Positions 19,802-46,577 of a DNA stretch of 64,000 bases are shown one piece after another. How positions within the stretch are numbered: position 1 is the first letter of the stretch; every line of letters starts with the position of its first letter. The DNA comes from Rhizophagus irregularis (taxonomy: Eukaryota; Glomeromycota; Glomeromycetes; Glomerales; Glomeraceae), in NCBI RefSeq assembly GCF_026210795.1, contig NC_089432.1:186001-250000 (forward strand), given 5' to 3'. Under the pieces are notes generated by a model, which had not been told where the DNA came from, did no database searches, and saw nothing but the letters and a program-made list of their open reading frames with translations. The translations under genes and the position numbers were made by a program.

Positions 19802-20680
19802 TTATTATATGAGTCAAATATTACCGAAATTCGGTTATTCATGTTTTCGTATAGCACATTGGTTCATCACTACAGTACAATATTGAAACTCACGCAAAAA
19901 GCATTATTATAATTTATTTATTTTTCATTTTACGACAGCAAGTTGTGTTATATAATTAGTTATTATAGTGGTGTATTTTATGTTATAATTTTCTTATAAA
20001 TAAACTTTTTTAGTTTCTTGTATTAATATGTATATGAGGATTCTATTAATAGGACTTCATCTTTCAATCTCAGAATACTTTCTGAAAAGTAATGTTAAAA
20101 GAAAATAATAAACATGAACAAATATTAAATGTAATATAAAAGATTCCCATTGTCCCCCCAAGTACTGATCAATTGAAACTGAATTGATGTCAAGCTGATG
20201 AAAAGATTCGATAATCGATTCCAATCCCAAGAATTGACTAGATTTAATTGGTCATAAATTTTTGATAAAGATCGACTGAAATCTATTAACAATTACTTGT
20301 CGAGTAAACAATAATTGAACAATTAATTTAGCAATTAATCGATCCATTTTTTATATCGTAAATAATAAATTTTGTAATCAAGTGTAAAATAATATAGGGT
20401 ACATTCGTAAAATTAAAATAAATTTCGTATTGTCCGATATGCCGATATGGGGAGTAAAATCTTACATGTCGTTAATTTATTTTTGTTACATATATATTGT
20501 GATTTAATAATCTGTCAATATATTTAGAAGTTAGAACCTTGAGCAATTATATAAAGAGAATTTTACAGGTTGGATACGTGATATAGCCGAAAAAGGAAGG
20601 ATCCACACATGATTTTACAGAAAGACTTGTTAGATTGGCGTAAAAAAAATTAATTATTTCTATAACAGATTAGTGATTAA
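19802..20680. other. Intergenic between SLR genes B and C
   Basis: About 880 bp with no gene. It contains a patch at 20165-20345 of overlapping AATTGA and TCAATT words, giving short imperfect palindromes; otherwise nothing is recognised. Confidence 0.4.
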
Positions 20681-20724
20681 GTACTGCAGTACTACGATCC
20701 AAAATAAATATGCAGTGTAAAAAT
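20681..20724 (+). promoter_or_regulatory. Core promoter module of SLR gene C
   Basis: GTACTGCAGTACTACGATCC is followed by AAAATAAATATGCAGTGTAA. The CTGCAGTA half and the AAATAAATATGCAGTGTAA half of the family core are both present, 53 bp before the start codon. The upstream ACTGCGGTGACACAA block is not seen. Confidence 0.6.
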
Positions 20725-20776
20725 CAAGCATTATTTCATTTTAAAATTTCTTTCTCCAGTAGAATTATTACCTGTA

Positions 20777-24240: not shown

Positions 24241-24333
24241 AGCTAATTTTTTACACTGCATATTTATTTACATTTGATTACTAATTAAAGAAATGATTTC
24301 ATTTGCCGCAGATTAATTTTCTGCGCCACCGCA
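24241..24333 (-). promoter_or_regulatory. Bipartite promoter module of SLR gene D
   Basis: Read on the minus strand, GCGGTGGCGCAGAAAATTAA and TCTGCGGCAAATG (block 1) are followed by CAAATGTAAATAAATATGCA and GTGTAAAAAATTA (core), ending about 60 bp before the start codon. This is the same order and spacing as in E, F, I and J, with changes in block 1. Confidence 0.6.
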
Positions 24334-25079
24334 ATTGTCGTTGATCCGAACTTTTTTAGTTATATCACGTGCTATCCTATAGCATGTGCACCAATAATAA
24401 TCGACAACTCTTAAATAAAAAAAAGCAGGCTAAGCAGCGAGTTAAAAGTTTTTGCATATAATTATCTCATGACATAGTTTTTATTTTTACGTACTGCTTA
24501 CATATTACAAGAATATTTTTGAAAAAAAAATGTTAATAATAAATCTTCATACAATACGTATTATATATACATATATATTTTTATTATACTATGATACGTA
24601 TCAAGTGTCTTGATAGTATATCGAACGAATTAGAGTGTTTATTCTTCGAGTCAATAATATCTTACAGTACTTTAAAGCGAACGGATGAAGAGAAAATAAC
24701 AATATTTCCTAACATTAAATAGTACAAATTAAAAATATATCATTTTAGTTATTGCGAGTTTGCGACGCATTCTTATGATGTTATTCCCTTAATAGTTTAA
24801 TATCGTAAATCTTAATGTCCTAATCTAGATAATGTAAGTATAATTAGTGTTTAAATAGTCTAAATTTAGTTGTAACGAGAGACGTAATTACTTTATTTTA
24901 GGAAATGGTTAATATAACTAATACTACTAATGCTACTAACAAACATCATGGTGTATTTACACTATTCTTTCCAGGGTAAGGATTCATAAAAGGCAACTAT
25001 AAAATTCAAATAATTGGAAATTAGCAATACTGAAATTAAATCATATACATTTACACAAAAATAACGTGATCATAAACGA
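24334..25079. other. Intergenic, contains an inverted dispersed repeat
   Basis: No gene. A short inverted repeat TGCTATCCTATAGCA lies at about 24370-24384. At 24638-24702 a segment starting AGTGTTTATTCTTCGAGTCA recurs in reverse orientation at 29633-29698, on the other side of the kinase gene. Confidence 0.45.
24638..24702 (+). repeat. Dispersed repeat copy 1
   Basis: AGTGTTTATTCTTCGAGTCA..., then TTTAAAGCGAACGGATGAAG and AGAAAATAAC. It matches the reverse complement of 29633-29698 with few differences. The two copies face each other across 5 kb that contains the second kinase gene. Confidence 0.65.
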
Positions 25080-30015: not shown

Positions 30016-30106
30016 ACGTCAAACTGCGGTAACACAAAATTAATCTGCGACAATTAACTCCGGTTACACTGCAGTAATACTCCAAATAAATATGCAGGTG
30101 TAAAAC
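30016..30106 (+). promoter_or_regulatory. Bipartite promoter module of SLR gene E
   Basis: Block 1 is CGTCAAACTGCGGTAACACA followed by AAATTAATCTGCGACAATTA. The core is GGTTACACTGCAGTAATACT, CCAAATAAATATGCAGGTGT, AAAAC. The arms TTACACTGCA and TGCAGGTGTAA flank the AAATAAATA word. It lies 130 bp before the downstream Met now used. Confidence 0.75.
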
Positions 30107-30235
30107 TTATTTTAAATTTTTAACTTAAATTTCTTTCACCGTGTGATATAATACTGAAACGAAAGCTGAATACGAAAATTATCAAACAGTTAATACTTAT
30201 CCTAAATTATCAATAAACAGCAACTAATTCTAAAT

Positions 30236-31117
30236 ATGAGTGATATTAATACACTGATTAATTCTAATTCATTACATGCAGCATTATCTCAAAATTTTTA
30301 TAAAGTAAATGCTTTGGAAATGGAACCTACAACTCAAAATATTGAAGATAATATTTTTGATGAAGACTTAATTATGGTAATTGATAATTTGGTTAATCTT
30401 TATCTTCAGGAAATAAATAAAGGAAAAGAAGAAAATGTAAGAAAGAAATTTGTTCTTGATTATTTTAATTATTATAAGATTAATTTGCAAAAAATGTATC
30501 ATTGGCTTGTAAATAACCAAACTTGCTCAAATTCTATTTATTTACTTGGATATTTTAATTATTATGGTATTGAAACTGACATTAATAAATACAATGCATT
30601 TAATATATATCAAAAAGCAGCAGAGTTAGGAAATATTGTAGTTCAATACGATCTTGCTAATATGTATATAGATGGGGAAGGTTCTGATAAAGATTATGAA
30701 AAAGCTTTTGAATTATCCAAAAAATTAACGGAAGGAAATAATACATGTGGGATAAATTTGTTAGGATATTGTTATGAATGTAATATCGGAACTGATGTTA
30801 ATGAACAAAAAGCATTCGAATTTTATCAAAATGCAGCAGATTTAGGAAATATATTTGGAATGTATAATTTAGGACGTTGTTATAAGAATGGATTTGGAAC
30901 CAGTATTAATAATGAAAAAGCATTTGAATTATTTCAAAGAGCGGCAAATTTTGAATACAATTCAGCTCAACAAAGTCTTGCCTGGATGTACGAAAAAGGA
31001 CGTGGAACTGAAAAAAATATAGAACTAGCAATTTATTGGTATAAAAAATCTGCTAAACAAGGAAGCATATATTCTAAAAATAAACTAAAGCACCTTTTAG
31101 AAGAATGTACCATGTGA
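30236..31117 (+). CDS. Sel1-like-repeat protein (member E, 5 SLRs)
   Basis: An intronless protein of 293 residues. The N-domain (MEPTTQNI, FDEDLIMVI, INKGKE, FVLDYFNYYKINLQKMYHW) is followed by five SLRs: YLLGYFNYYGIE, ANMYIDGEG, GYCYECNIG, GRCYKNGFG and AWMYEKGRG, ending YWYKKSAKQG. About 35 residues of the ancestral leader are lost. Upstream sequence still reads like GCTGAATACGAAAATTATCA (AEYENYQ) and CTAAATTATC, but the family ATG is gone and a one-base loss in the AATAAACAG segment shifts the frame, so translation most likely starts at the Met at 30236. Its C-terminal half is nearly the same as that of F, with shared 3' flank, so the two are a tandem duplicate pair. Confidence 0.85.
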   Translation: MSDINTLINSNSLHAALSQNFYKVNALEMEPTTQNIEDNIFDEDLIMVIDNLVNLYLQEINKGKEENVRKKFVLDYFNYYKINLQKMYHWLVNNQTCSNSIYLLGYFNYYGIETDINKYNAFNIYQKAAELGNIVVQYDLANMYIDGEGSDKDYEKAFELSKKLTEGNNTCGINLLGYCYECNIGTDVNEQKAFEFYQNAADLGNIFGMYNLGRCYKNGFGTSINNEKAFELFQRAANFEYNSAQQSLAWMYEKGRGTEKNIELAIYWYKKSAKQGSIYSKNKLKHLLEECTM

Positions 31118-31656
31118 TAATTTATTAAAGAAACCGGGTTAAAATATATATACGTATTTTTTCAGGTAACTTATTAACAGACTTTGTTTTCGATTAATTA
31201 TGCTTATAGAGTTATAGTTAATTGTTATTGCAATTATAATAATTATAATACTATTTTGATTTCAAAAACCAGGTATATATATCTCTCTGTCTTTTATTTC
31301 GCGATGTTTAACGTTAACTTCGACTTTTATCCAGCCAACAACTTATTAAAAAATATGAGAATTTTTTTTATTTAATTTTTGTGATATTTACTTGGAAATT
31401 CTATGAAAACTTCGTGTATTTCGGTTTGTAAATTTAATTCTAAAGGTTTATTGTATCAGTTTTCATTTATATATCTGAGTATTTAAATATTTGAAATTTA
31501 CTGATTTATGTTTATATGAGATTACATTATGTCTTCAATCTAACATTAAATAAAGTTGATTTTTATTATATTGAATATGTTGCTTTTCTATATAGTAACA
31601 ATACAAATTACGCATTAGTATGTTATGAAAATTACTTTCATTTTACACTTAATATA
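31118..31656. other. 3' flank of SLR gene E
   Basis: No gene. It starts with TATTTTTTCAGGTAACTTATT and TTTTCGATTAATTATGCTTA, which has a close counterpart downstream of F (33233-33290). A later ATTAAATAAAGTTGATTTTTATTATATTG block (31545) recurs after F and, weaker, after H and I, so the duplicated unit includes the 3' region. Confidence 0.6.
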
Positions 31657-32026
31657 CAGTCAGACCTCCATATAGTCACTCTCTACTATATAGTCACAAC
31701 TTTTTATAAGAACTCATTTTTTCAACCGGATTTTTGTTATATAAAATTACCTTCTCACAATCACAAATCAATTATAATCACTAACACATCATTGATCTAA
31801 ATGTACATATTATTGATATTCCTCTCACAATCACCTATAAATTATAATTCTGGCCGTATATCATAATTTTTAGCCAAAATCACATGATTTCGGATTAATG
31901 TAATTCCGACTAGCACTATATTCAGAAATTAATTTTAGTTAAATTTAAAAATCTTTAGTATATAATTACTCCTCTATGCAAAACCAATTTGGCGGAACCG
32001 ATTAGGTGATTATGGAGGTCTGACCG
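31657..32026. mobile_element. 370-bp pogo/Tigger-like MITE
   Basis: The left end CAGTCAGACCTCCATATAGT is matched by the reverse complement of the right end, CGGTCAGACCTCCATAATCA, giving about 17 of 20 identical. The left flank is TA; the right flank is CA, consistent with a TA target site with one change. The interior is AT-rich, has no coding capacity and includes a TATAATTCTGGCCG word. Terminal CAGT with TA target is typical of pogo/Tigger members of Tc1/mariner. It ends 25 bp before the promoter module of member F and is absent at the same place upstream of the other members. Confidence 0.75.
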
Positions 32027-32050
32027 CACCCTTTTATATAACTAAGAGTA

Positions 32051-32146
32051 CGCCAAAACTGCAGCAACACAAAATTAATCTGCGACAATTAGATCTGGTT
32101 ACACTGCAGTAATACATCCAAATAAATATGCAGTGCAAAAAATTAA
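32051..32146 (+). promoter_or_regulatory. Bipartite promoter module of SLR gene F
   Basis: Block 1 is CGCCAAAACTGCAGCAACAC, AAAATTAATCTGCGACAATT. The core is GGTTACACTGCAGTAATACA, TCCAAATAAATATGCAGTGC, AAAAAATTA. It is the best match to the E module, and is set directly next to the pogo-like MITE. Confidence 0.75.
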
Positions 32147-32291
32147 TATTATTTCAGAACTTAAATTTCTTTCACCCGTATGATTATTGTTCATAATATC
32201 AGATAATACTTAAATACAAGCTGAATACGAAAATTATCAAACAGTTAATATTTATCCTAAATTATCAAATAAACAGCAACTAATTCTAAAT

Positions 32292-33176
32292 ATGGATAAT
32301 ATTAATACACCGAATATTAATAATAATTCATCACATACAGAATTATCTCAAATTAATCAAAAATTTTTTAAAGCAAATGTATTAGAAATCGAACCTTCAA
32401 CTCGTAGTATTGAAGAAAATATTTTTGAAGAAGATTTAATTATTATAATTGATAAATTTGTTGATCTACATTTTCAGGAAACAAATAAAGGCATGGAAGA
32501 AAAAGTAAGAAAGAAATTTGTTCTTGATTATTTTAGTAATTATAGTATTAATTTACAAGAAATCTATTATTGGCTTATAAATAACCAAACTGGTTCAAAT
32601 TCTATTTATTTACTTGGATATTTTAATTATTATGGGATTGGAATGGACATTAATGAACAAAATGCATTTAAATTATATCAAAAAGCAGCAGAGTTGGAAA
32701 ACATATTAGCTCAATTTGAACTTGCTGGTATGTATTTATTGGGGAAAGGTGTTGGTAAAAATTATAGTAAAGCTTTTGAATTATCTGAAAATTTATCAGA
32801 AAGAAAATATCCATATGGAATAAATAGGTTAGGATATTGTTATGAATTTGGATTTGGAACGTATATTGATGAAAATAAAGCATTCGAATTATATCAAAAG
32901 GCAGCAGATTTAGGAAATATATTTGGAATGTATAATCTAGGACGTTGTTATAAGAATGGATTTGGAACCAGTATTAATAATAAAAAGGCATTTGAATTAT
33001 TTCAAAGAGCGGCAAATTTTGAATGCAGTAAAGCTCAACAAAGTCTTGCCTGGATGTATGAAAAAGGATATGGTACTGAAAAAAGTGCGGATCTAGCAAT
33101 TTATTGGTATAAAAAATCTGCTGAACAAGGAAGCATATATTCTAAAAGTAAATTAAAGCAACTTTTTAAAGAATGA
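32292..33176 (+). CDS. Sel1-like-repeat protein (member F, 5 SLRs)
   Basis: An intronless protein of 294 residues. The N-domain (IEPSTRSI, FEEDLIIII, TNKGME, FVLDYFSNYSINLQEIYYW) is followed by five SLRs: YLLGYFNYYGIG, AGMYLLGKG, GYCYEFGFG, GRCYKNGFG and AWMYEKGYG, ending YWYKKSAEQG. The ancestral start is degraded: where relatives have ATGTCAGATAATAC the sequence is ATATCAGATAATAC followed by TAA, so the first 35 or so codons are now leader and the Met at 32292 is used. This is a different lesion from those in E and J. Repeats 4 and 5 are almost identical to those of E. Confidence 0.85.
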   Translation: MDNINTPNINNNSSHTELSQINQKFFKANVLEIEPSTRSIEENIFEEDLIIIIDKFVDLHFQETNKGMEEKVRKKFVLDYFSNYSINLQEIYYWLINNQTGSNSIYLLGYFNYYGIGMDINEQNAFKLYQKAAELENILAQFELAGMYLLGKGVGKNYSKAFELSENLSERKYPYGINRLGYCYEFGFGTYIDENKAFELYQKAADLGNIFGMYNLGRCYKNGFGTSINNKKAFELFQRAANFECSKAQQSLAWMYEKGYGTEKSADLAIYWYKKSAEQGSIYSKSKLKQLFKE

Positions 33177-34041
33177 GCTATGTAATGATTTTTAAAGATA
33201 TTAGGCAAAATATAGTATACCGTATATGTATGTATTTTTTCAGGTGACTCATTATCATGCTGTTTTTGATTAATTATTCTTATGTATAATTGTTATTGCA
33301 ATTAATAATTTCAAAGACTGGTATATACAACTCTCCCTTCTAATTAGCCTTTTTCGTCTCACGACTGTTTAGCTTCAACTTCAACAACTTATTAATATAT
33401 ATAAGAATTTTTTTTATATAATTTCCGTGAAAAATTCGAGGATTTCGATTTATAATTTAATCGAAAGGAAAATCGTAGATTTATTGCATACTTATTTTAT
33501 TTATCTGTGAATTTTGGTATTAGAAATTTATATTTAACTATATTATAAAGTGCTTTCATTAGATCTCTATTCCGTCATCTATTTTACCATTATATGAGAT
33601 TACGCAATCTACTTTAAATAAAATTTATTTTTATTATATTGAAATATGATGTATTTCTTTAACGTTAATAATACAATTGTAAAAATATATATATATAATT
33701 TTTACGCATTGGAATGATAACAATAATTAGCGTTACAAGCATTTTTTGTATATATTCAGGAAATGAAATTCATATTTTCATCAAAAAATTTGATAATAGC
33801 ACATTATCAGTAATGTTTAAATGTACATTGGAGGATCACTTTAGCGCGGTTGACAAAGAGTTGGTAAGGACGGGAAGAATCTTTAGATTTTCGTGACATG
33901 ATATCTTAAAGTGATTTATTTATTTTTGTTTTTTAACCGAAAAATTTTATTGAACCTTTTGGCAGTCTCCTGGAAAACCAGTAGAGCTTCCGATATATTA
34001 AAAGTAATGCAACGGAATTTAATTTATTTATAGGATCTTAA
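33177..34041. other. 3' flank of SLR gene F
   Basis: The sequence is homologous to the 3' flank of E in its first 450 bp. The 60-codon frame at 33714-33896 has no recognisable feature. No gene is supported. Confidence 0.45.
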
Positions 34042-35399
34042 CCCTATGAAAAAAGTCTGTGTGATTTTTGTTGAAAAATCATTCAATTAAATTCACTATG
34101 ATTTCTGTATATTTGACCATACAATAATTGTGCTAAAAATTGCAATAAATCACACAATTATTGCATGGTAATTCATTCAATAATTATCCTATTTTTGACC
34201 TGAATTTATACAATTATTGTGTGATTTTTGAGCCAAATTTAGGCCATATTTTAGGAATTATAGGTTAAATTTTACAGTAATAACAGGCAATTTATAAAGT
34301 GAAATTATGAATTTTTATTGACTTAAAATATAAAAAATATACACAATATTTCATAAATAAAATACTAAATTTGATATAATCATAAATATAAAAATTTGTA
34401 AGAAAATAAAATAAAATAAAGTATGTTAGTCACATGAAAGTAAATTAGTAGTATCAAAGAAGAAAGTAAATTATTAGTATAAGTAAATTATTAGTATTAA
34501 ATAAAAAAGTATGAAGTTAGTGAAGAAAGCAAATTAGTAGTGTTAAAAAGTAGATTAATATTGTTAGTAATATAAAGTTTGAAGTTAGTGAAGAAAGAAA
34601 ATTAGTAGTGTTAAAAAGTAAATTATTGTAATAAAAAAAAGTATGAAGTTAGTGAAGAAAGCAAGTTAGTAACATTAAAATGTAAAAAGTTAGGAAAATA
34701 AAAAGATAAAGAACACAAGTTTTTCTTACCTGATATTTTAAAAGAAAGTTGAAGAAAAGTTAAAAGGTTAAAAAAACATAAACAAAAACATTTCGTGTCG
34801 TCATATTTATTTTGACGATCAGATCACGTGATCAACATATATAATTTTAAGAGTTGATTTTTACCGCATAATTCTGGCCGAATTATAATTCCAGTCAGAA
34901 CTAATTGTATAACCTAATAAAAAGTTTTTGACTTTTTTTTAGTTACAAGATGATACAAAAATTTCACCAATAAGTTCGGAAGATGCCCATTTATAAGCAA
35001 ATATGCAGTTGAATTTTGTGTAACCTTACTGCATAAATCACTTTACTTAGGAAAATCTATTTGTAATGGTTAATAAAAGTGGTCCATTTGACCCTAAAAG
35101 TGGTTAAATGTAACCATACAGGTAAGATGGAAAGTAGTAATAGTAGGATTACCCAAAAATTGCTTTCCGTATCCTAAATTTAAGTCTATTATCAAGTTGT
35201 ACAATAATCACAATTTTTATTGTACAAAAATTGATTGTTTTCTGTATCCTAAATTTAAGTTGTACAAAAATTGCATACTTTTAATATGCTTTGAAAAACT
35301 TCATAGCTATTTTTATCCAAAAATCTGCAATAATTGTACAATTTCCACACGGACTTGAACAAATATTGTACAAAAATTGGATGATTTTTTTTCATAGGG
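34042..35399. mobile_element. 1.36-kb non-autonomous element, TAA target duplication
   Basis: The ends are exact inverted copies over 13 bp, CCCTATGAAAAAA, continuing with AGTCTGTGTG on the left and a displaced AAGTCCGTGTGG on the right. The flanks are TAA on both sides (34039-34041 and 35400-35402). A TAA target duplication fits the PIF/Harbinger group (TWA), although the CCCTAT end is not typical. The interior has no coding frame, many ACAATAATTGT-like words, and a three-unit minisatellite at 34500-34690. It sits between SLR genes F and G. Confidence 0.7.
34500..34690. repeat. Minisatellite, three ~66-bp units
   Basis: The unit AAGTATGAAGTTAGTGAAGA, AAGCAAATTAGTAGTGTTAA, AAAGTA recurs near 34507, 34575 and 34640 with few changes, inside the 1.36-kb element. 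Shorter AAGTAAATTATTAGTA copies precede it. Confidence 0.7.
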
Positions 35400-35689
35400 T
35401 AATAATATTTACCTAGTAATATCAATTGTTTAATATAATAATAAATAATTTCTCTTCTACTTCCATGTTCAAATATACAATATATACATGTTTTTTAATT
35501 AATAAATAAATAATTAGGTATAATTTTCGGACATCCAATATACTGTAAAGTAATTTTCATAAATAATAAACACATTTTTCGTATTGCATAAAGAATTCAT
35601 AACGTAATTTTAGTACTTTGGTCATATTAAACAAGTAAAAATTGCTTATGTAAGTTATTTGTAAGGTGTGAGAATATTTGTATATAATC

Positions 35690-35836
35690 CCATCGGTATT
35701 GTGTATACACCGATGGATTTTTTTGTAAATTACTCCACCAGTATAAAAAAAGTATAAAAAAGTATGATAAGCTTCAGTTGTTATTCCATGGATATCTAAT
35801 AAATACTCATGTCCGATGCTCCCTTCCTTCGGGGGC
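35690..35836 (+). repeat. Dispersed TGTTATTCCATGG repeat, partial copy
   Basis: CCATCGGTATTGTGTATACA, CCGATGGATT and GTAAATTACTCC are followed by TGTTATTCCATGGATATC (35779) and GATGCTCCCTTCC, TTCGGGGGCC. This matches the reverse complement of 44643-44766 segment by segment. The right-hand TGTTATTCC arm present in the other copy is not seen, so this copy looks truncated or more decayed. Confidence 0.65.
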
Positions 35837-36330
35837 CATGATGAAATAATTAATTATCGTGGGTCTACCTTGAATTGAAATAAAGTCATTTTAGTTTTGT
35901 AATTTGAACAATTTGGCCATAGGAAGTAAACAAAAAGTAAGTTGTTCAGCAGATATGAAAATGATTGTACATTAGTCTTTGTGGTTTAGCTTGAATGATT
36001 ATAGATATTGAGAGGTTGAGTCACAATTTTTTTAGTGTAAAAATTGTAAAAATTTCAGTGCTAACATAATAACATTTAGCATATAATAATCATTAGTAAT
36101 TATGGCATGGATTTTAAATAAACTTAAATAATTAAAATATAATAACTTATATTTAATAAAATTACTTATTCAAAATACTTTAATAAAATATTATTATTTA
36201 TTAATAATCTAAAAAACACAGAGATGTAGAATATCTTCAAATATGAAAATTTTTTCATATGTTACACAAAAATGGTGTGGCTGATGAAGGCGCTATATTA
36301 TTATCGCAATCACGTGAAAATAGATTAGTA
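35837..36330. other. Intergenic before SLR gene G
   Basis: No gene or further repeat is recognised; AT-rich sequence. Confidence 0.4.
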
Positions 36331-36362
36331 ATCACTGCATGCAGTACTACAATGTAGTACAT
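36331..36362 (+). promoter_or_regulatory. Degenerate promoter module of SLR gene G
   Basis: ATCACTGCATGCAGTACTAC keeps the CACTGCA and TGCAGT words, now brought next to each other with the AAATAAATAT spacer lost, about 60 bp before the start codon. The upstream ACTGCGG block is not found. Confidence 0.4.
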
Positions 36363-36415
36363 TAAAATGAAAAAAAAATAGTCTAATTAAATTTTTCTTT
36401 TTTTTTGTATTCACG

Positions 36416-37438
36416 ATGTCCGATACTACTGAAATACAAGCTGCTTATAAACGTTGTCAGGAAGATAATCATCATCCTGAGTTATCAGATAAACGGAAAT
36501 TGACTCTAAATTTAGATAATGCAGAAACTCAAAATTTTTTTTGGGTAGATATAAATGAAATGAAGCCTACAACTCAAGACATTAAAGAAAATATTTTTGA
36601 AGAAGATTTATGTATTGTAGTTGATGAATTGGTTAATCTTTATTTTGAAGAAACGAATAAAGGAAAAGAAGCAAGAGTAAGAAAACAATTTGTTCTTGAT
36701 TATTTTAATGATTGCAAAATTAACTTACAAGAAATCTATCATTGGCTTCTGAATAATCAAACTTGTTCAAATTCTATTTATTTACTTGGATATTTTAATT
36801 ATCATGGAATTAATGTTGAAGTTAACCAGAAAAATGCACTTATATTATATCAAAAAGCAGCAGAATTGGAAAATATTGTAGCACAATTTGATCTTTCTTA
36901 TATGTATATTTGTATCGAAAAAGATTATAATAAAGCTTTTAATTTATCTAAAAAATTATCTGAAAAAAAATATCCATGTGGAATAAATAGATTGGGTTAT
37001 TGTTATGAAAAAGGAATTGGAACCGAAATCAATAACCAAAAGACGTTTGAATTATATAAAATGGCAGCCGACTTAGGAAATGCAAATGGAATAAATAACT
37101 TAGGATATTGCTATGAAAAAGGAATTGGGACTGAAATTAATGAACAAAAGGCGTTTGAATTATATTACAAAGTAGCAGATTTAGGGGAATCGTTTGGAAT
37201 AAATCACTTGGGTAATTGTTATTTTAGTGGGATTGGAACGTTAGTTAATTTTCAAAAAGCATTCGAATCATACCAAAAAGCAGCAAATTTGAATTATGAT
37301 GTAGCACAATATAATCTTGCTTTGATGTATGAAAATGGGTATGGAACTAAGAAAAGTATAGATTATGCAATTTATTGGTACAAAAAATCTGCCAAACAAG
37401 GATATGAAAATGCACAGAATAGATTAAATAATCTTTAA
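36416..37438 (+). CDS. Sel1-like-repeat protein (member G, 6 SLRs)
   Basis: An intronless protein of 340 residues with the full family leader (MSDTTEIQAAYKRCQ, then LSDKRKL). The N-domain has MKPTTQDI, FEEDLCIVV, TNKGKE and FVLDYFNDCKINLQEIYHW. Six SLRs follow: YLLGYFNYHGIN, SYMYICIEK (shortened), GYCYEKGIG twice, GNCYFSGIG and ALMYENGYG, ending YWYKKSAKQG. It is closest to member K: both have the GINHLGNCYF unit and the ALMYENGYGTKK end. Predicted scaffold protein; no enzymatic motif. Confidence 0.88.
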   Translation: MSDTTEIQAAYKRCQEDNHHPELSDKRKLTLNLDNAETQNFFWVDINEMKPTTQDIKENIFEEDLCIVVDELVNLYFEETNKGKEARVRKQFVLDYFNDCKINLQEIYHWLLNNQTCSNSIYLLGYFNYHGINVEVNQKNALILYQKAAELENIVAQFDLSYMYICIEKDYNKAFNLSKKLSEKKYPCGINRLGYCYEKGIGTEINNQKTFELYKMAADLGNANGINNLGYCYEKGIGTEINEQKAFELYYKVADLGESFGINHLGNCYFSGIGTLVNFQKAFESYQKAANLNYDVAQYNLALMYENGYGTKKSIDYAIYWYKKSAKQGYENAQNRLNNL

Positions 37439-37839
37439 AAATTAATTAGAATTTTATGTTATATTATATATTTATTGTATAAATCTGTATTTTTATTATA
37501 AAAAAGCTATCATGGAAAAAATCCTGGGCGGCTGATTAAGTGGTGTATTATTTTGAGATGCATGTGACAATTTGAATTTATATAATTATTACTTTTATTA
37601 ATAAATCATGACAGAATTTATAAAAATAATTTGATGTATCTACTGTATATTCCATGTTCTTCTCATATCCGTGAAATAAATAATCTATTAGTAATGATAT
37701 TTTATATATTGCAAGTTTAGATCCTGTAAAAATGGGGAAGGCAGTTTTTTGGGAGTATTTTTGGACTTATATTATTTACATTTTCTCATAAACAATGAAT
37801 GATTCACTTTATTTTTTGGGGATATGATCACGCTCTTTG
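37439..37839. other. 3' flank of SLR gene G
   Basis: No gene. AT-rich, with nothing recognised. Confidence 0.4.
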
Positions 37840-38700
37840 TCGGATCATTTTCTGAATGACCATTTTCTGAATATACATTTTCCCGAAGTATGCCAACTAC
37901 CGAATAGGATCTTTTCCTGAAATATACAATTTCTCCAATCCGTATTTCCTAAATCCTAATTTCCTGAGATATAATAATATACTACAATCTCTTTCATAAT
38001 TCATAACTTCAAAGTTTTGTCATTAAAATATATTTATTCAAGCAGGTTAGATGACAATAATTATTAAAAACTTTATAAAGCAAGTACTAACCATGAAATC
38101 AAATTTACTGGGAATAGAAAAAAACTAAGTTTATATTTATTAATATAATGCTTCATTCAGGCCAGAAAATAGTAACTATTACTAATTTCACGTTATACGT
38201 ATAAAAAAAAATATTTTCATAATTAATTTATACTTTAGAGAAAAAGTTTCGTTACAGATACAACTTTCATGATGATCACGAGAATTTTAATCGAATAATA
38301 AAATCAGTTCATTTTTGTATTTATATTGAGCATGTATTTTAATATAGGTCTATTATTGCATATTACGTTATATACACGTATAAAAAAAAGTAATAGTATA
38401 TTAAAGAAAATGCATGCAAATATTGTTATTTAGCACGAAAGTGATTATTTAGAAAAAGTTGTTACATTATTAAATTGCCCATTTGGGATAACAGGATTCA
38501 TGATCGGGATATTGGAATTCATGATAAAATAATTCGGGATAAAAGAACTTAGGATTTGGGATTTTCATGTGATTCCCATAAATTAGGAATCGAAAATTGA
38601 ATTTCGAGTTCCAGCAAATGATACAGTTCGAGAAGTGGACATTCGGAAAATTAACTTTAGGAAAAGGTATATTCAAGAAAAAAGCATTCGGGAGATAGTT
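37840..38700. mobile_element. Foldback-like element with short-word arms
   Basis: The left arm (37840-37975) has repeated CATTTTCTGAATATACATTT, TTTTCCTGAAATATAC and CCTAAATCCTAATTTCC words. The right arm (38470-38695) carries the reverse complements: CTTGAATATACCTTTTCCTA, TTCTCGAACTG, AAATCCTAAGTTC. The 490 bp between is plain AT-rich sequence. Arms made of degenerate subrepeats in opposite orientation are the hallmark of foldback elements. The ends are not exact and no target duplication was found. Confidence 0.45.
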
Positions 38701-39318
38701 AATTATTTATGGGAATTGTCTAGTAATTAGAACATATGCGTCATTTCTTTAATAAATATATGATTTTTAAAAGTTTGTCATCTTTGCTGCAATCATAATC
38801 TAAACAATATTCTATTTAAAATAAAATTAATACGTTATACAAATCAATTTTTACCCTTTTTTAATCACTGATTCTTCACATTACATATTAAAACTATTTG
38901 TCATATATCGTTTGATATTTCAACAATTCAATTCAGCAACTAAATATACTTGTGAAACGTCAAATTTTTTAATTTTTTTTTCGAAAATTTACGTAATGTT
39001 GTGATATCCATCAATATGTGCAGTAGATATTATACATTTGAGTGAAAAATTTCGTCCTCATGATAAACGCTCCAAGGGAAAGTCATTAGGTCTGAAGAAA
39101 CTTACGCAAAACATTAGACTTGTAGAAGTTTTGATCGACCTGGAATTTTTGTCAACCTAAATTTAATATATGGTCGAATGTCAAAGATTTAGCGGAAATT
39201 ATTGCAGTTTTGACCGAATTTCCGAAGTCTCCTAGAAGTTGCTGCAGATCTGGCGCAATTTATCTGATATGATTTTTTTGTTAATATTAAAAATAATGTT
39301 TACTAATAAATAATGAGT
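38701..39318. other. 5' flank of SLR gene H
   Basis: No gene; AT-rich, with a CTAGAAGTTGCTGCAGATCTGG patch near 39231. Nothing else recognised. Confidence 0.4.
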
Positions 39319-39440
39319 CGTCAAACTGCGGTGACACAAGCAGATTAATCTACTTGGCTAAATTAATTGCCACTCTCAGAACGCCAATACTGCAGTACTG
39401 CTGTACATCCAAATAAATAAATATGTTGTGTAAAAATTTA
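39319..39440 (+). promoter_or_regulatory. Bipartite promoter module of SLR gene H
   Basis: Block 1 is CGTCAAACTGCGGTGACACA, AGCAGATTAATCTACTTGGC. The core is ACTGCAGTACTGCTGTACAT, CCAAATAAATAAATATGTTG, TGTAAAAATT. Spacing between blocks is enlarged relative to E and F, and the right arm reads TTGTGTAA rather than GCAGTGTAA. An ATG inside AAATATG (39423) belongs to this core, not to the gene. Confidence 0.7.
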
Positions 39441-39482
39441 GCCATAGTATTTCACTTTCAACCCGCAGAATCATTATTCATA

Positions 39483-40388
39483 ATGACTGATAACACCGCT
39501 TACGAATGTTATCATCAATTATCAAATAAACGACAATTAATTCAAAATTTGGATATGCTATCTCATATTACTCGAAATTTTTTTAGAATAAATATATCGG
39601 AAATAGAACCTACAACTCAAGATATTGAGTATATTTTTGATGATGATTTAAATATTGTGATTGATAATTTGATTAATCTTTATTTTCAGGAAACAAATAA
39701 AGGAAAAGAAGAAAAAGTAAGAAAGAAATTTGTTCTTGATTATTTTAATTATTATAAGATTAATTTGCAAAAAATGTATTATTGGCTTCTAAATAATCAA
39801 ACTTGTTCAAATACTGTCTATTTACTTGGATATTTTAATTATCACGGAATTGAAATTGATATTGATGAACAAAATGCATTTGAATTATATCAAAAAGCAG
39901 CTGAGTTAGGAAATATTGTAGTTCAATACGATCTTGCTAATATGTATTTTTATGGGAAAGGTGTTGATAAGGATTATGATAAAGCTTTTGAATTATCTAA
40001 AAAGTTATCAGAGAAAAAATATTCATGTGGATTAAATAGGTTAGGATATTGTTACGAATATGGTATTGGAACTAATGTTAATGGACAAAAAGCATTTGAA
40101 TTATATCAAAAAGCGGCAGAATTAGGAAATGTAATTGGAATATATAACTTGGGACGTTGTTATAAGAATGGATTTGGAACCACTATTAATAAAAATAAGG
40201 CTTTTGAATCACTTCTAAAAGCAGTAAATTTAGGATATAATGTAGCTCAACAAAATATTGCCTGGATGTATGAAAAAGGATATGGAACTGAAAAAAATAT
40301 GGATTTAGCAATTTATTGGTATAAAAAATCTGCTGAACAGGGGAATAAATATTCTCAAAATAAATTGAACAAACTTTTAAATGAATGA
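39483..40388 (+). CDS. Sel1-like-repeat protein (member H, 5 SLRs)
   Basis: An intronless protein of 301 residues from the Met at 39483 (MTDNTAYECYH), which aligns with the family MSDN start. The frame stays open 20 codons further up to an ATG in the promoter core, and that upstream piece is rejected as coding. The N-domain has IEPTTQDI, FDDDLNIVI, TNKGKE and FVLDYFNYYKINLQKMYYW. Five SLRs follow: YLLGYFNYHGIE, ANMYFYGKG, GYCYEYGIG, GRCYKNGFG and AWMYEKGYG, ending YWYKKSAEQG. The leader is shorter than in G, I and K. Same predicted scaffold role. Confidence 0.87.
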   Translation: MTDNTAYECYHQLSNKRQLIQNLDMLSHITRNFFRINISEIEPTTQDIEYIFDDDLNIVIDNLINLYFQETNKGKEEKVRKKFVLDYFNYYKINLQKMYYWLLNNQTCSNTVYLLGYFNYHGIEIDIDEQNAFELYQKAAELGNIVVQYDLANMYFYGKGVDKDYDKAFELSKKLSEKKYSCGLNRLGYCYEYGIGTNVNGQKAFELYQKAAELGNVIGIYNLGRCYKNGFGTTINKNKAFESLLKAVNLGYNVAQQNIAWMYEKGYGTEKNMDLAIYWYKKSAEQGNKYSQNKLNKLLNE

Positions 40389-40861
40389 ATTATATAGATT
40401 TTATTGAAAAAGAAATTACTAGTTATTAAACCAAAAAAAAAAAAATGTAAGTATCTCGTTAACCTGTTTATTATGCCCAACTTCATGCGCTAGTAATTTC
40501 GAATTTAATTTAATTTCACGTGATTTGCGTAAATAATTCATGGGAAGTTTATTTTGTAAGTTCAATCTACACTTTTATCAAATCGCTTTATCATATAATA
40601 TTTAAATAACCTACTAGTAGTTAGAAATTAGCAATTTGTATTTAATTTTGTTATAAACTGCTTTAATTAGATTTTTAAATTGTGAATTATAACAAAATTT
40701 AAGATTTTCAATAAATTGGTTCACTATTTATGTGATTAAATAATGCTTATATTAAATAAAAGTTATTTTTGTTATATTAAATATAATCCCTTTATAAATA
40801 ATGCATATGTTGTATTTATATAATGTTCTTATATAACAATAATACTTTATACTTTATGTAA
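40389..40861. other. 3' flank of SLR gene H
   Basis: No gene. The segment TAGTTAGAAATTAGCAATTT and the later ATTAAATAAAAGTTATTTTTGTTATATT are shared in modified form with the flanks of I and J, so this is part of the duplicated unit. Confidence 0.5.
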
Positions 40862-40946
40862 TCAAAACTGCGGTGACACAAAGTTAATATGCGACAATGG
40901 TTTCACCGCAGTGTTACATTCAAATAAATATGCAGTACAAAATTAG
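40862..40946 (+). promoter_or_regulatory. Bipartite promoter module of SLR gene I
   Basis: AAACTGCGGTGACACAAAGT, then TTCACCGCAGTGTTACATTC, AAATAAATATGCAGTAC. Here ACTGCGGTGA and TCACCGCAGT are perfect 10-bp inverted arms, which shows that the two blocks of the module are themselves mirror copies; the other members have CACTGCAGT at the second place. It ends 54 bp before the start codon. Confidence 0.75.
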
Positions 40947-41000
40947 TTTCTTTCATGATAACTTAAATTTTCGTTCACTTGTAAAAAATTACTATTTACA

Positions 41001-42083
41001 ATGTCAGATAATATTGAAATGCAAGCTAAATATGAAAATTATCAAAATATTTATCCTAAATCATCAAATGAACAGCAACTGACTCTAAATATGAATAATA
41101 TTAATATACCGAATATTAATAATAATTCATTACATATAGAATTATCTCAAATTAGTCAAAATTTTTTTAAAGTAACTATATCAGAAAAAGAACCTTCAAC
41201 TCAAGATATTGAAAAAAATATTTTTGAAGAAGATTTAAAAACTATAGTTGATAATTTGGTTGATCTTTATTTTCAGGAAACAAATAAAGGGAAAGAAGGA
41301 AGAGTAAGAAAGAAGTTCGTTCTTGATTATTTAAATAATTACAAAATTAACTTACAAGAAATCTATCATTGGCTTCTAAATAATCAAACTTTTTCAAATT
41401 CCATTTATTTACTCGGTTATTTTAATTATCAAGGAATTGGAGTTAACATTAACATGCAAAATGCATTTAAATTATATAAAAATGCAGCAGAGTTGAAAAA
41501 TATTGCGGTTCAATATGATCTTGCTAATATGTATATAGATGGGGAAGGTACTGATAAAGATTATGAAAAAGCTTTTGAATTATCCAAAAAATTAGCAGAA
41601 GGAAAATATACATGCGGAATAAATTTGTTAGGATATTGTTATGAATATAATATTGGAACTGCAATTAATGAACAAAAAGCATTCGAATTTTATCAAAATG
41701 CAGCAAATTTAGAAAATATGTTTGGAGTATATAATTTAGGACGTTGTTATAAGAATGGATTTGGAACCGATGTTAATAAAAAAAAGGCATTTGAGTCATT
41801 TCAAAAGGCAACAAATTTAGGAAATGTATATGCAAGTTATAGTTTAGGACGTTGTTATAAGAAGGGATTTGGAACTAATGTTAATAAAAAAAAAGCATTT
41901 GAATTATTTCAAGAGCCAGCAAATACTGGATATAATATGGCTCAACAAAATCTTGCCCGGATGTATGAAAAAGGATATGGAACTGAAAAAAATATAAATA
42001 TGGCAATTCATTGGTATAAAAAATCTGCTGAACAGGGGAATGAATATTCTCAAAACAAATTGAACCAACTTTTAAATGAATGA
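41001..42083 (+). CDS. Sel1-like-repeat protein (member I, 6 SLRs)
   Basis: An intronless protein of 360 residues with a full leader (MSDNIEMQAKYENYQ). The N-domain has KEPSTQDI, FEEDLKTIV, TNKGKE and FVLDYLNNYKINLQEIYHW. Six SLRs follow: YLLGYFNYQGIG, ANMYIDGEG, GYCYEYNIG, GRCYKNGFG, GRCYKKGFG and ARMYEKGYG, ending HWYKKSAEQG. Units 4 and 5 are near copies of each other (both GRCYK.GFGT then VNKKKAFE.FQ), so one unit was gained here by tandem duplication relative to E, F, H and J. Predicted scaffold. Confidence 0.88.
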   Translation: MSDNIEMQAKYENYQNIYPKSSNEQQLTLNMNNINIPNINNNSLHIELSQISQNFFKVTISEKEPSTQDIEKNIFEEDLKTIVDNLVDLYFQETNKGKEGRVRKKFVLDYLNNYKINLQEIYHWLLNNQTFSNSIYLLGYFNYQGIGVNINMQNAFKLYKNAAELKNIAVQYDLANMYIDGEGTDKDYEKAFELSKKLAEGKYTCGINLLGYCYEYNIGTAINEQKAFEFYQNAANLENMFGVYNLGRCYKNGFGTDVNKKKAFESFQKATNLGNVYASYSLGRCYKKGFGTNVNKKKAFELFQEPANTGYNMAQQNLARMYEKGYGTEKNINMAIHWYKKSAEQGNEYSQNKLNQLLNE

Positions 42084-42787
42084 ATTAAATAGTAATTTTT
42101 AAGTATTATTAGAAAAAAAAATTACTATTATTATAGATGTAGGTATATTTACATTCTGTACTTGCTAATTTTTATTTATTCAAATATTTAAGAAAAATTC
42201 ATGGTAGCCAAATTTATGTAAGTTCCAAAGGAAAAACATTCTTTATCGAATCGCTTTATTATGTATTATTCATTTTTGTTTCAAGTATCTGGGTAGTTAA
42301 GGACTACAGTTTTATATTTTTATATTTTAATTTTGTTATAAAAGTTCTCATTAGATTTTTGCAGCTTTCTCAACAAATTGGACCGATCATCACTGGTAAA
42401 GAGGTAATATGGAAACCTTGGTGTACGTGATTGAAACTTGTCCAATTTACATAAAATTTCCATAACATTTCCACAACTTCATTGAAATTTGGAGTACACC
42501 ATGGAAATTGGATAGGTTTCCACCAAATTTTAATAGCATAAACTTCACGTAAACCATATCTCTTCGACCTGTACATGTCACTAACGTCCAATAACAATCT
42601 TTTACCTATTTATTTTCATTATTTATTTATTTTGGCTAGTACATTATGCTGACATTAAATAAAGAACATTATTGTCGTTTTGGTATAATATATTTTATAT
42701 AATAATAATTGTTTAAAAATTTGATTTTGTGCGATTGGAATATAGTGAGAATTGAGAATTTCTTTTTTGTACTTTATGTAATGATGA
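42084..42787. other. 3' flank of SLR gene I with a foreign patch
   Basis: No gene. Compared with the flanks of H and J there is an extra, less AT-rich patch of about 230 bp at 42375-42600 with inverted words (GGAAACCTTGGTGTAC against GTACACCATGG and GGTTTCC). It may be an inserted fragment. The minus-strand open frame across it (75 codons) has no recognisable domain. Confidence 0.4.
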
Positions 42788-42890
42788 GCGTCAAACTGCG
42801 GTGACACAAAATCATTCTGCGGACAATTAAAACTAATTGGTTACACTGCAGAAGTACATCCAAATAAATATGCAGTGTAAAAATTAAATA
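42788..42890 (+). promoter_or_regulatory. Bipartite promoter module of SLR gene J
   Basis: Block 1 is CGTCAAACTGCGGTGACACA, AAATCATTCTGCGGACAATT. The core has perfect 10-bp arms TTACACTGCA (42841-42850) and TGCAGTGTAA (42871-42880) around GAAGTACATCCAAATAAATA. This is the cleanest copy of the arm-TATA-arm layout. Confidence 0.8.
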
Positions 42891-42996
42891 ATGTTTTTCG
42901 CCCCTCATACGCCCCTCAATGACTTTCTGAATACGAAAATTATTAAACAGTTAATATTTATCCTAAATTATCAAATAAACAGTAACTATTCTGAAT

Positions 42997-43833
42997 ATGG
43001 ATACATCTCATGTTGTACAAAATTTTTTTAAAGTAAATATGTTGGAAACAGAACCTTCAACCCAAGATATTGAAGAAAATATTTTCGAAGAAGATTTAAG
43101 TATTTTAGTTGATAAATTGGTTGACCTTTATTTTCAGGAGACAAATAAAGGAAAAAAATTAAGAAAGCAATTTGTTCTTGATTATTTTATTAGTTATAAG
43201 GTTAATTTACAAGAAATTTATTGTTGGATTCAAAATAACCAAACTTGTTCAAATTCTAATTATTTACTTGGGTATTTTAATTATCATGGAATTGGAATTG
43301 ATATTAACATGCAAAATGCATTTAAATATTATCAAAAAGCTGCAGAATTGGAAAATGTATTGGCTCAATTTGAACTTGCTAGTAACATGTATTTTTATGG
43401 GAAAGGTGTTAATAATAATTATTATAAAGTTTTTGAATTATCTGAAAAGTTGTCAAATAGAAAATATTCATGTGGAATAAATTTATTAGCATATTGTTAT
43501 GAACATGCATTTGGAACTAATATGAATGGACAAAAAGCATTCGAATTATATCAAGATGCAGCAGATCTAGGAAACGTATTTGGAATATATAATTTAGGAC
43601 GTTGTTATAGGAATGGAATTGGAATCAGTGTTAATATAAAGAAAGCACTTGAATTATATCAAAAAGCAGCAAATTATGGATATCATGTAGCTCAACAAAA
43701 TATTGCCTTGATGTATGAGAAAGGATTTGGAACTGAAAAAAATATAGATCAAGCAATCCATTGGTATAAAAAATCTGCTGTACAAGGGAATAAATATTCT
43801 CAAAGTAAATTGAAACAACTTTTAAAAGAATGA
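42997..43833 (+). CDS. Sel1-like-repeat protein (member J, 5 SLRs)
   Basis: An intronless protein of 278 residues, the shortest of the long group because the leader is lost. Upstream, CTGAATACGAAAATTATTAA and CCTAAATTATCAAATAAACA still mark the old reading frame, which now holds stops; the Met at 42997 lies just before FFKVN. The N-domain has TEPSTQDI, FEEDLSILV, TNKGKK (one codon pair shorter than relatives) and FVLDYFISYKVNLQEIYCW. Five SLRs follow: YLLGYFNYHGIG, ASNMYFYGKG (one extra residue), AYCYEHAFG, GRCYRNGIG and ALMYEKGFG, ending HWYKKSAVQG. Confidence 0.85.
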   Translation: MDTSHVVQNFFKVNMLETEPSTQDIEENIFEEDLSILVDKLVDLYFQETNKGKKLRKQFVLDYFISYKVNLQEIYCWIQNNQTCSNSNYLLGYFNYHGIGIDINMQNAFKYYQKAAELENVLAQFELASNMYFYGKGVNNNYYKVFELSEKLSNRKYSCGINLLAYCYEHAFGTNMNGQKAFELYQDAADLGNVFGIYNLGRCYRNGIGISVNIKKALELYQKAANYGYHVAQQNIALMYEKGFGTEKNIDQAIHWYKKSAVQGNKYSQSKLKQLLKE

Positions 43834-44587
43834 ATGAATTAATAATTTTTAAGTATTATTGGAAAGAGATTAATATTTATTATCCAAAAAATACAGATAT
43901 CTTATTTAACCTGCTTTTTAAATTTATTACTCTTGATTTACTCTATAAAATCAACCTTTTAACTTTCCGCGCTACTAATTTACTATGAAATTTTTTCAAT
44001 TAAGTAATTTATTCAAATAAGAGTTTTTGTTTAATTATATGGAAAATACATGGATCTATAAATTAATTCTAAGTGAAAATGCTTATTATATCATTTTCAA
44101 TTATTCAATAATATTTATTTTACTTCAAATATCTGAGTAGTTAGTAGTAATTGGAGATTTATATTTTAATTTTATTATAAAATATTTTCATTAAGATTTT
44201 GAGAATGTATAACTATTACTATGCGTTTTTTCAACAATCATGTTCACTATCTATTTCTGCTCTTATTCACTTATTTTTACAATTTATTTATGTTGAGACT
44301 ACATTAATTATTAAATACGGGTATTTATTATAAATAATACATGTCGTTTTGCATAATATTTTTTATATGATATATTTTAAGTAACAATACAATTGTTAAA
44401 AATTAAGATTTTAAAAATAATTCCTATAAATTATGGTAATAAATTAATATTCATAAGAACCACAAAAAAAAATTAAAAAGATTATTCAGTATTTTACACA
44501 ATATTTAGTCGAAAATAAATTTTTTAAAAAATAAAAGTTATTTGTTATCAAATGTAAATTATGAAGAATACGAGAGAAATATATACT
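43834..44587. other. 3' flank of SLR gene J
   Basis: No gene. Degraded homology to the H and I flanks; AT-rich. Confidence 0.4.
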
Positions 44588-44702
44588 TGTTATTCCATGG
44601 GTATCAATGAATAACTGAAATATTCACTGATGCCTTGGGGGCCCGAAGGGAGGGGAGCATCGGTGTATATGGAGTATTTTATTAGGTACCCATGGAATAA
44701 CA
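44588..44702 (-). mobile_element. 115-bp TIR element, TGTTATTCCATGGGTA ends
   Basis: The left end TGTTATTCCATGGGTATC and the reverse complement of the right end, TGTTATTCCATGGGTACC, match at 17 of 18 bases. The centre is GC-rich (CTTGGGGGCCCGAAGG). No coding capacity. Flanking sequence to 44766 is also shared with the copy at 35690-35836, so the true element may be larger than the TIR-to-TIR unit. No clear target duplication. Confidence 0.65.
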
Positions 44703-45305
44703 GGCTTATATCATTGTGTATGACGTGAGTAATTTACAAATCCATCGGTGAATACATAATATCGATGTGATAAAAAAAATTATTTTAGGTATAAATTTTA
44801 TGTTTGGTTTATTTTATGAACATGCCATATTTCTGCGGTGATACTGAGATAGTTGATGTTATAATAGCAGTATCTTAAGCAACTCCTCGTTGCTATAAGT
44901 GTAAAATGTAAGTAATTTTCATGATATTTGATATCGCTCCAATAAATGGGACGTAGTATTGACTTATACATTTTAGAAATAATCAGCGCTAAATCACGTA
45001 ATCGGGATATTTTTCGAATATTTTCATGTATTGAATTGACAAGACCTAAGTAGACAAAATAATAAATACCGTGGATATGAATGAGATAAATATGGAATGT
45101 CAATCGATTTAACTTTTTTAATAAAATATTGTTACATTTTATTATACTAACAATAAATATAAATAAATTATAATTCAGTTACTCATAAATTGGCCCTTAA
45201 AATTAATATACTATATGGTCATTCACCAGATTTTTTTTATATATTAAGTAATTTTACAAAAAAGGTACAGATTTATACGAGAAACATAAATAGAAACATA
45301 AAATT
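44703..45305. other. Intergenic between J and K (convergent 3' ends)
   Basis: The first 65 bp belong to the dispersed repeat. The rest has no supported gene; a 101-codon minus-strand frame at 44798-45103 has no family features and is taken as chance. Confidence 0.4.
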
Positions 45306-46382
45306 TTAATTTAAAAGATTATTCAATTTATTTTGTGCATTTTTGTGTCCTTGTTTGGCAGATTTTTTATACCAATAAATTGCATTATCTATATTTTTTT
45401 TAGTTCCATACCCATTTTCGTACATAAAAGCAAGATTATATTGGGCTCTATCATTTTTCAATTTTGCGGCTTTTTGATATAATTCCAATGCCTTTTGCGT
45501 ATTAACTAAAGTTCCAATTCCATTAAAATAACAATTGCCCAAGTGATTTATTCCAAACGATTCTCCTAAATCTGCTACTTTGTCATATAATTCAAATGCC
45601 CTTTGTTCATTAACTTCTGTCCCAATTCCCTTTTCATAACAATATGCTACGTTATTTAACCCCTTTGCATTTCCTAAATCTGCCGCTCTTTCATATAGTT
45701 CAAACACTTTTTGTTCATTAACATCAGTTCCAATGCCATGTTCATAACAATATCCTAATAAATTTATTCCACATGAATAATTTCTTTTCGCTAAATCTAT
45801 AGTTAATTCAAAGGCTTTTTCATAATCTTCATCAGTACCCTCCCCATCCATATACATATTGGCAACTTCATATTGAGCTACAATATTTTCCAACTCTGTT
45901 GCTTTTTGATAAAATTTAAATGCATTTTGCATATTAATATCAATTCCAATTCCATGATAATTAAAATATCCAAGTAAATAAATAGAGTTTGAATAAGTTT
46001 GGTTATTTAGAAGCCAACAATAGATTTCTTGTAAATTTATTTTATAATCATTAAGATAATCAAGAACAAATTTCTTTCTCGCATTCACTTCTTTTCCTTT
46101 ATTTATTTCTTCAAAATAAAGATTAACCAATTTATCAACCACTATAATTAAATCTTCTTCAAGAATATTTTCTTTGATATCTTGAATTGTAGGTTCTATT
46201 TCTAATATATTTACTTTAAAAAAGTTTTGAATAACATGAGATAATTTTTCTGTGTATAAAGAAAGATTCAATATACTAATATTATTCATATTTAGATTTA
46301 GTTGCTGATTATTTGATAATTTAAGATAAGTTTTAACTTGATAATTTTCGTATTCAGCTTGCATTTCGGTATTATCCGACAT
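45306..46382 (-). CDS. Sel1-like-repeat protein (member K, 6 SLRs)
   Basis: An intronless protein of 358 residues with a full leader (MSDNTEMQAEYENYQ, then LSNNQQL). The N-domain has IEPTIQDI, LEEDLIIVV, INKGKE and FVLDYLNDYKINLQEIYCW. Six SLRs follow: YLLGYFNYHGIG, ANMYMDGEG, GYCYEHGIG, AYCYEKGIG, GNCYFNGIG and AFMYENGYG, ending YWYKKSAKQG. The GINHLGNCYF unit and the GTKKNI end pair it with member G 8 kb away in opposite orientation. Its promoter is directly followed upstream by a foldback-like element. Confidence 0.88.
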   Translation of the reverse strand: MSDNTEMQAEYENYQVKTYLKLSNNQQLNLNMNNISILNLSLYTEKLSHVIQNFFKVNILEIEPTIQDIKENILEEDLIIVVDKLVNLYFEEINKGKEVNARKKFVLDYLNDYKINLQEIYCWLLNNQTYSNSIYLLGYFNYHGIGIDINMQNAFKFYQKATELENIVAQYEVANMYMDGEGTDEDYEKAFELTIDLAKRNYSCGINLLGYCYEHGIGTDVNEQKVFELYERAADLGNAKGLNNVAYCYEKGIGTEVNEQRAFELYDKVADLGESFGINHLGNCYFNGIGTLVNTQKALELYQKAAKLKNDRAQYNLAFMYENGYGTKKNIDNAIYWYKKSAKQGHKNAQNKLNNLLN

Positions 46383-46430
46383 TGTGAATAATACTTTATA
46401 GGTGAAGAAGTTTAAGTTACCATAAAATGA

Positions 46431-46508
46431 TTACACTGCATATTTATTTGGACGTAATACCGTACCGCAGTACGACCAATGAATTTTGTATGCCGCAGTT
46501 TTGGCGTT
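46431..46508 (-). promoter_or_regulatory. Bipartite promoter module of SLR gene K
   Basis: Read on the minus strand: AACGCCAAAACTGCGGCATA, then TACTGCGGTACGGTATTACG, TCCAAATAAATATGCAGTGT, AA. Like member I it keeps CTGCGG at the second site, where E, F and J have CTGCAG. Confidence 0.7.
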
Positions 46509-46577
46509 ATACTAATCTTCATTACATGAGGCATATAAAGTATTAATTTCAGAATATTTGATATTCCCAGTAGTGTG

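Follow-up and report, generated by a model that had tools for sequence, protein, structure and literature searches.

Ten of the 12 stand-alone Sel1-repeat genes in a 64,000-nucleotide stretch of Rhizophagus irregularis DNA (NCBI RefSeq assembly GCF_026210795.1, contig NC_089432.1, positions 186,001 to 250,000; the window hereafter) are preceded by one module of short sequence words. The module stands in sense orientation at a nearly constant distance from the gene start, and its words persist where the spacers between them have changed in sequence and length. In our assessment it is probably the RNA polymerase II promoter of the expanded Sel1-repeat gene family, a reading drawn from sequence comparison.

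The G+C content of the window is 25.8%. In a Pfam scan of 10 window proteins, PF08238 Sel1 repeats were matched in five and a PF07714 tyrosine-kinase-like domain in two, with no match for the remaining three. The window thereby resembles the expanded Sel1 and tyrosine-kinase-like gene families of R. irregularis, as described in two papers (PMC8647823; PMC6123716). We lettered the Sel1 genes by position and counted 12 stand-alone genes (A-K and M; Table 1). A Sel1-plus-kinase stretch at 10454-14837 is outside this count and had no profile match just upstream among the matches listed. Gene C (20777-21430) has an in-frame stop at a position where its relatives have tryptophan. Because its reading frame is broken, it was omitted from the protein alignment, which comprises the other 11 stand-alone proteins, and from the identity comparison.

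Sequence words, order and placement

In the sense direction the order is distal box, middle box, proximal CTGCAG site, TACATCC, AAATAAATATG, TGCAGTG and a pyrimidine tract. An earlier note on this DNA had described a shared word order, which is real and extends to 10 Sel1 genes, although the note missed the middle box and the order is lacking upstream of A and G. The middle box (TTAATCTGCGACAAT or similar) lies between the distal and proximal boxes, is common to D, E, F, I and J, and is backed by word counting. The distal box often has a 5′ extension of CGTCAA or CGCCAA. The gap between distal and proximal sites, previously put at about 40 bp, actually ranges from 28 bp (K) to 64 bp (H). A distal TGCRG word starts 49 (K) to 89 bp (H) before the core in the seven copies having one, and the proximal word (CTGCAG, CCGCAG or CTGCGG) lies 15 to 25 bp before the core.

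The core AAATAAATATGCAG occurs in seven exact copies on the two strands of the window, each of them in sense ahead of a Sel1 gene (C, D, E, F, I, J and K). Allowing two mismatches adds 13 matches, three at the place of the module (H, B and M) and 10 elsewhere. The shorter core AAATAAATA is exact in nine of the 10 modules, B being the deviating one, and is common in this AT-rich window (52 matches vs. 18.6 expected). The distal word ACTGCGGTGACACAA is exact in H, I and J, with one mismatch in E and three in F, and the K copy carries a deletion (ACTGCGGC-ATACAA). With up to three mismatches allowed, it is found seven times where 0.38 are expected: in sense in E, F, H, I and J, once as the inverted proximal site of I and once at 22834-22848. 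ACTGCRGTG has six matches where 0.08 are expected, and 17 of 19 ACTGCRG words (strands counted apart) fall within 2.2% of the window.

Word counting upstream of the 12 Sel1 starts, made without reference to the earlier note, put the same words first. The 8-mers AAACTGCG, AACTGCGG, ACTGCGGT and ATGCAGTG tie for first place and the 10-mers ATAAATATGC and TAAATATGCA rank first, with p-values for 10-mers down to 3.6e-22 against a null best of 4.6e-5. These p-values assume independent paralogues, which the genes are not, and apply to the 400 commonest words (60 per draw for the null), with estimated starts for E, F and J. The highest information content over 14 columns was 16.9, a value that none of 60 alignments drawn at random from the window reached (maximum 9.9).

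In a leave-one-out profile search, trained on nine copies and run against the window for the tenth, eight of the 10 modules (C, D, E, F, H, I, J and K) were recovered, with E-values from 4.5e-7 to 7.3e-19. The inverted genes D and K, to which the earlier note had extended the module, are among them and have exact sense cores. Across the ten runs the best non-module match had an E-value of 0.0029-0.68 and was the reverse strand of the I module (four runs), 7103-7158 inside gene A (three) or a site near 22790-22855 (three). B was anchored 4 bp off in the alignment, the profile search and the start-distance listing, and at 18687 for the offset and information-content, pyrimidine-tract and frame analyses. 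According to the earlier note, a module found equally often away from genes would be a repeat element. Profile and core-word searches of the 64-kb window yielded no significant copy away from genes, and a repeat element, with gene-independent copies in both orientations, was rejected within the window since only gene-linked copies were significant. Within the 64 kb, the module accompanies 10 of the 12 stand-alone Sel1 genes and has no significant copy elsewhere, and to that extent it may be family-specific.

The distance from core to ATG is 67-79 bp in B, C, H, I, K and M (B measured from 18687) and 90 bp in D, so that in the seven genes with the usual start it is nearly constant. These genes agree with the 50-130 bp first proposed, and E, F and J, at 152, 172 and 135 bp, exceed it. 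The longer distances arise because the ancestral ATG has been changed (ATA at the homologous site in F) or deleted (E and J), the next ATG lying further in. E, F and J may start at this later ATG, in a similar AAATATG or GAATATG context, with shorter N-termini. Downstream of the core, the best pyrimidine-rich 12 bases start at +33 to +60 in all 10 copies, and a tract of at least 10 pyrimidines in 12 is found in 10 of 10 modules vs. 10 of 42 other AAATAAATA sites, a control set of coding as well as non-coding sites. The tract is suggestive as a mark of the start region.

Under the promoter reading, the AAATAAATATG block would be an AT-rich, TATA-like core, and transcription would start about 30-60 bp downstream of it, at or near the pyrimidine tract (e.g., TTTCTTTCACC), so that the leader ahead of the ATG would be short. 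The distal ACTGCGGTGACACAA, middle TGCGACAA, proximal ACTGCAGT and downstream TGCAGTG words would be sites for one or two sequence-specific factors that may control the Sel1 family together. ACAAT or CGTCA may resemble known fungal factor sites.

The core also contains an ATG in all 10 copies, in an A-rich context. AAATAAATATG could thus be the context of a start codon within the leader, a conserved upstream AUG that lowers translation or, in H and M, where it opens in frame with the Sel1 frame, one that lengthens the N-terminus. We regard this as quite improbable. Counted from the Sel1 start, the core ATG keeps no constant frame (0, 1, 1, 0, 2, 0, 2, 1, 2, 0 from B through M), the other eight small frames run to 3 to 50 residues, and conservation reaches upstream to TACATCC and the distal box, neither of which a start context needs. 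A mixed frame would be less puzzling in an untranscribed core, and gene predictions for H and M may begin too far upstream.

An intron with its 5′ site at CAGTGTAAAA was considered by eye on the alignment and rejected, as the splice-like words are not kept across copies.

Conservation, common descent and points against a promoter

Since all carriers are paralogues, part of the likeness of the modules comes from common descent. Identity among E, F, H, I, J and K (pairwise, gaps excluded, from one alignment with uncertain gaps) is 0.94 in the core, 0.90 in the distal box, 0.71 in the middle box and 0.65 in the proximal box; the stretch immediately following the core stands at 0.50 and the pyrimidine block at 0.84. 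Four-fold degenerate sites of the same genes are identical at 0.80 (639/798; chance 0.39). Adding D, B and M brings the core to 0.83 and four-fold sites to 0.75 (1223/1621). When only E, F, I and J are compared, all four boxes (core, distal, middle and proximal) reach 0.88 to 0.98, above four-fold sites at 0.84. The core is thus conserved above four-fold sites in every group tested, D, B and M included, and the distal box in the closer groups only. When the three separate pairs E-F, I-J and H-K are pooled, 128 of 155 box positions match, compared with 151 of 286 in the spacers (p = 1.6e-10). This result is supportive rather than independent because the boxes were chosen from these same sequences.

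Passive inheritance would explain the module as upstream sequence copied in tandem duplications and not yet eroded, with nothing beyond ordinary promoter function. Descent contributes, because the flanks of E-F, E-J and F-J are alike over longer stretches (E/F align upstream over 236 bp at 81% and E/J over 226 bp at 75%) and scattered patches 3′ of the genes are alike too. The 80% identity at four-fold sites, the core kept by a broken gene and the fall of the distal box below four-fold sites once D, B and M are added also favor passive inheritance. However, in each group tested the core is more alike than spacers and four-fold sites, as is the distal box in the closer groups, and D, C, K and H retain the words while spacer sequence and length vary. 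On this evidence we consider passive inheritance unlikely as the full explanation.

Several observations nevertheless weigh against a family promoter. The module is lacking in A and G, which have partial profile matches at chance level only (E = 8.0 and 7.5 in the full run). On their own, B and M do not reach significance in the leave-one-out search. The E-value of B (0.33) is that of the best non-module match of its run, and M (0.047) ranks below a non-module match with E = 0.0029. In the six closest genes the middle and proximal boxes fall below four-fold sites, and so does the distal box (0.68 vs. 0.75) once D, B and M are included. The box-spacer comparison covers seven of the 10 modules (B, C and M omitted) and is partly circular, as some boxes were picked by eye; the E-F pair alone gives p = 0.05. 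All carriers are paralogues, and C, although broken, retains the module, including the exact core and the 14-bp palindrome AGTACTGCAGTACT. Finally, AAATAAATA is not a strict TATAWAW box, and no TATAWAW lies inside AAATAAATATG, which is present in nine of the 10 modules.

Two further likenesses between genes were seen outside the modules. A 25-base word, GAAAATTACTTWCATTTTACACTTA, is common to the 3′ flanks of E (31627, + strand) and K (44920, - strand), and D and E have a 71-bp patch in common (83% alike) that is found far upstream, at about -520 and -606, beyond the module.

Mirror arms and folding

The perfect arms that the earlier note had seen in J (42841-42850 and 42871-42880) and I (40867-40876 and 40903-40912) are present. 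As single strands, these two modules fold better than expected (z = -3.8 for J and -3.2 for I), and for each only one of 200 shuffles did as well. E, F and C fold somewhat better than shuffles (z = -2.1, -2.0 and -1.7), and D does not fold (z = 0.57). The arm pairs differ, I pairing distal with proximal and J proximal with the downstream arm. Across the seven copies with a proximal site, aligned without gaps at the cost of one inserted base in E, mean complementarity of the arms is 6.29 of 9 within copies vs. 6.79 between copies (permutation p = 0.96). D, B and M retain the core and right side without a left arm. One mirror structure was rejected, as the arms do not covary and the copies would pair different arms. 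Since there is no covariation, I and J pair differently, and D, B and M have no left arm, repeated binding words are a better reading of the arms than one conserved structural unit. The proposal of up to three sites in alternating orientation is clear for I, the only copy with an unambiguous inverted ACTGCRGTG pair; elsewhere it is weakly defined because the proximal word (CTGCAG/ACTGCAGT) is self-complementary. The broader suggestion of a regulator site plus core promoter would fit in place, orientation, kept words and pyrimidine tract, though not with the mirror arms as a structural unit.

These arms could instead define a mobile or repeat element resembling a miniature inverted-repeat transposable element, or a hairpin or cruciform, placed before genes. 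The folding of I and J, that of E and F at z of about -2, and the repeat-rich character of related genomes (PMC8647823) point that way. Against it, the copies are always in the sense direction, no significant one lies away from genes in the 64 kb, and their distance to the start is nearly fixed. A single arm pair covarying and folding in all copies, as expected of an inverted-repeat element, was not found: I and J use different pairs, the arms do not covary, D does not fold, and D, B and M do without the left arm. Taken together, such an element is very improbable.

A separate feature lies close to F. The words CAGTCAGACCTCC and GGAGGTCTGACC at the ends of 31657-32025 resemble the terminal inverted repeats of a transposon-like element, which ends 33 bp before the distal box of F.

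Relation to known systems and the Sel1 family

A conserved family promoter would make the module a known kind of element, with a family-specific regulator as a candidate. Fungal TATA-type RNA polymerase II core promoters have a CT-rich stretch before the start site. The module is like them in its AT-rich word followed by a pyrimidine tract, its short predicted leader and its near-fixed distance to the start codon. It is unlike them in that the word is AAATAAATATG rather than TATAWAW and that the G+C-containing TGCAGTG abuts it directly. The var genes of Plasmodium are an expanded family with shared upstream promoter classes, and the Sel1 set is similar in having many tandem paralogues and one conserved upstream module with repeated short sites. 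We extend the comparison neither to silencing or exclusive expression nor to a sequence relation.

Literature searches by topic and motif, with partial coverage, gave no title or start of abstract on promoter elements of arbuscular mycorrhizal fungi, nor a title on those of this gene family, among the matches listed. The motif search matched 48 papers, and none of the 20 listed concerned mycorrhizal fungi by title. In their available portions, the two papers on this species cover the Sel1-like family, its methylation and its relation to transposons, and not its promoters (PMC8647823; PMC6123716); the words "promoter" and "motif" are absent from the main text of PMC8647823. Scans of IMG/VR with module patterns matched two and 14 stretches. 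These matches are taken as chance because the two share one common context and the 14 are apparent variants of one coding region. In an IMG/VR scan for the Sel1 protein the pattern matched two stretches, neither encoding a relative. A scan of genome contigs for the protein matched 60 stretches, 18 of which encode relatives, all bacterial by title and 23-43% identical.

The word defined in 10 of the 12 paralogues provides a concrete sequence for a genome scan (e.g., CCAAATAAATATGCAG) and for a search for the binding factor, from which it would become clear whether the expanded Sel1 family is regulated as a single unit. A bolder and rather doubtful idea is that a dedicated regulator recognizing ACTGCRGTG switches the whole family together or one gene at a time, an arrangement that would resemble in its logic the promoters common to variant gene families of parasites. 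If so, a single DNA word could reveal which genes form host- or stage-dependent sets.

Table 1. Sel1-repeat genes of the window and their upstream modules (positions in the window; E, E-value of the leave-one-out profile search).
Gene	Position	Strand	Module	E	Boxes	Remarks
A	6734	+				stand-alone, without module
B	18755	+	18628..18712	0.33	ATAAAAATATGCAG at 18687	stand-alone, weak module
C	20777	+	20680..20737	5.4e-8	proximal palindrome AGTACTGCAGTACT; core 20702-20715; distal box not found	broken frame, module kept
D	24179	-	24241..24340	4.5e-7	distal TTGCGGTGGCGCA; middle box; no left arm; core 24269-24256, then TGTAA	module present
E	30236	+	30016..30110	2.3e-16	distal 30023-30037; middle about 30041-30055; proximal CACTGCAGT 30067-30075; core AAATAAATATGCAG 30084-30097	module present, ancestral start codon lost
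F	32292	+	32051..32145	7.3e-19	distal 32058-32072 (3 mismatches); proximal 32102-32110; core 32120-32133	module present, ancestral start codon lost
G	36416	+				stand-alone, without module
H	39483	+	39318..39440	4.7e-11	exact distal 39325-39339; CTGCAG at 39390; core AAATAAATAAATATGTTG 39411-39428	module present, core with 2 mismatches
I	41001	+	40860..40945	1.4e-14	exact distal 40867-40881; inverted proximal site 40904-40912; core 40922-40935	module present
J	42997	+	42788..42885	4.1e-18	exact distal 42795-42809; left arm 42841-42850; core 42862-42875; right arm 42871-42880	module present, ancestral start codon lost
K	46382	-	46430..46510	6e-9	distal near 46499-46485; CTGCGG near 46470; core 46449-46436	module present
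L	about 49240-49720	-				broken Sel1 fragment, no recognizable 5′ part or module
M	57057	-	57106..57142	0.047	TACATTCAAATAAATATGTTG; core 57134-57121, 77 bp before MSEK start	weak module

Upstream of G, the stretch 36339-36375 has CACTGCATGCAGTAC and TACATTAAAATG and is possibly an eroded copy of the module.

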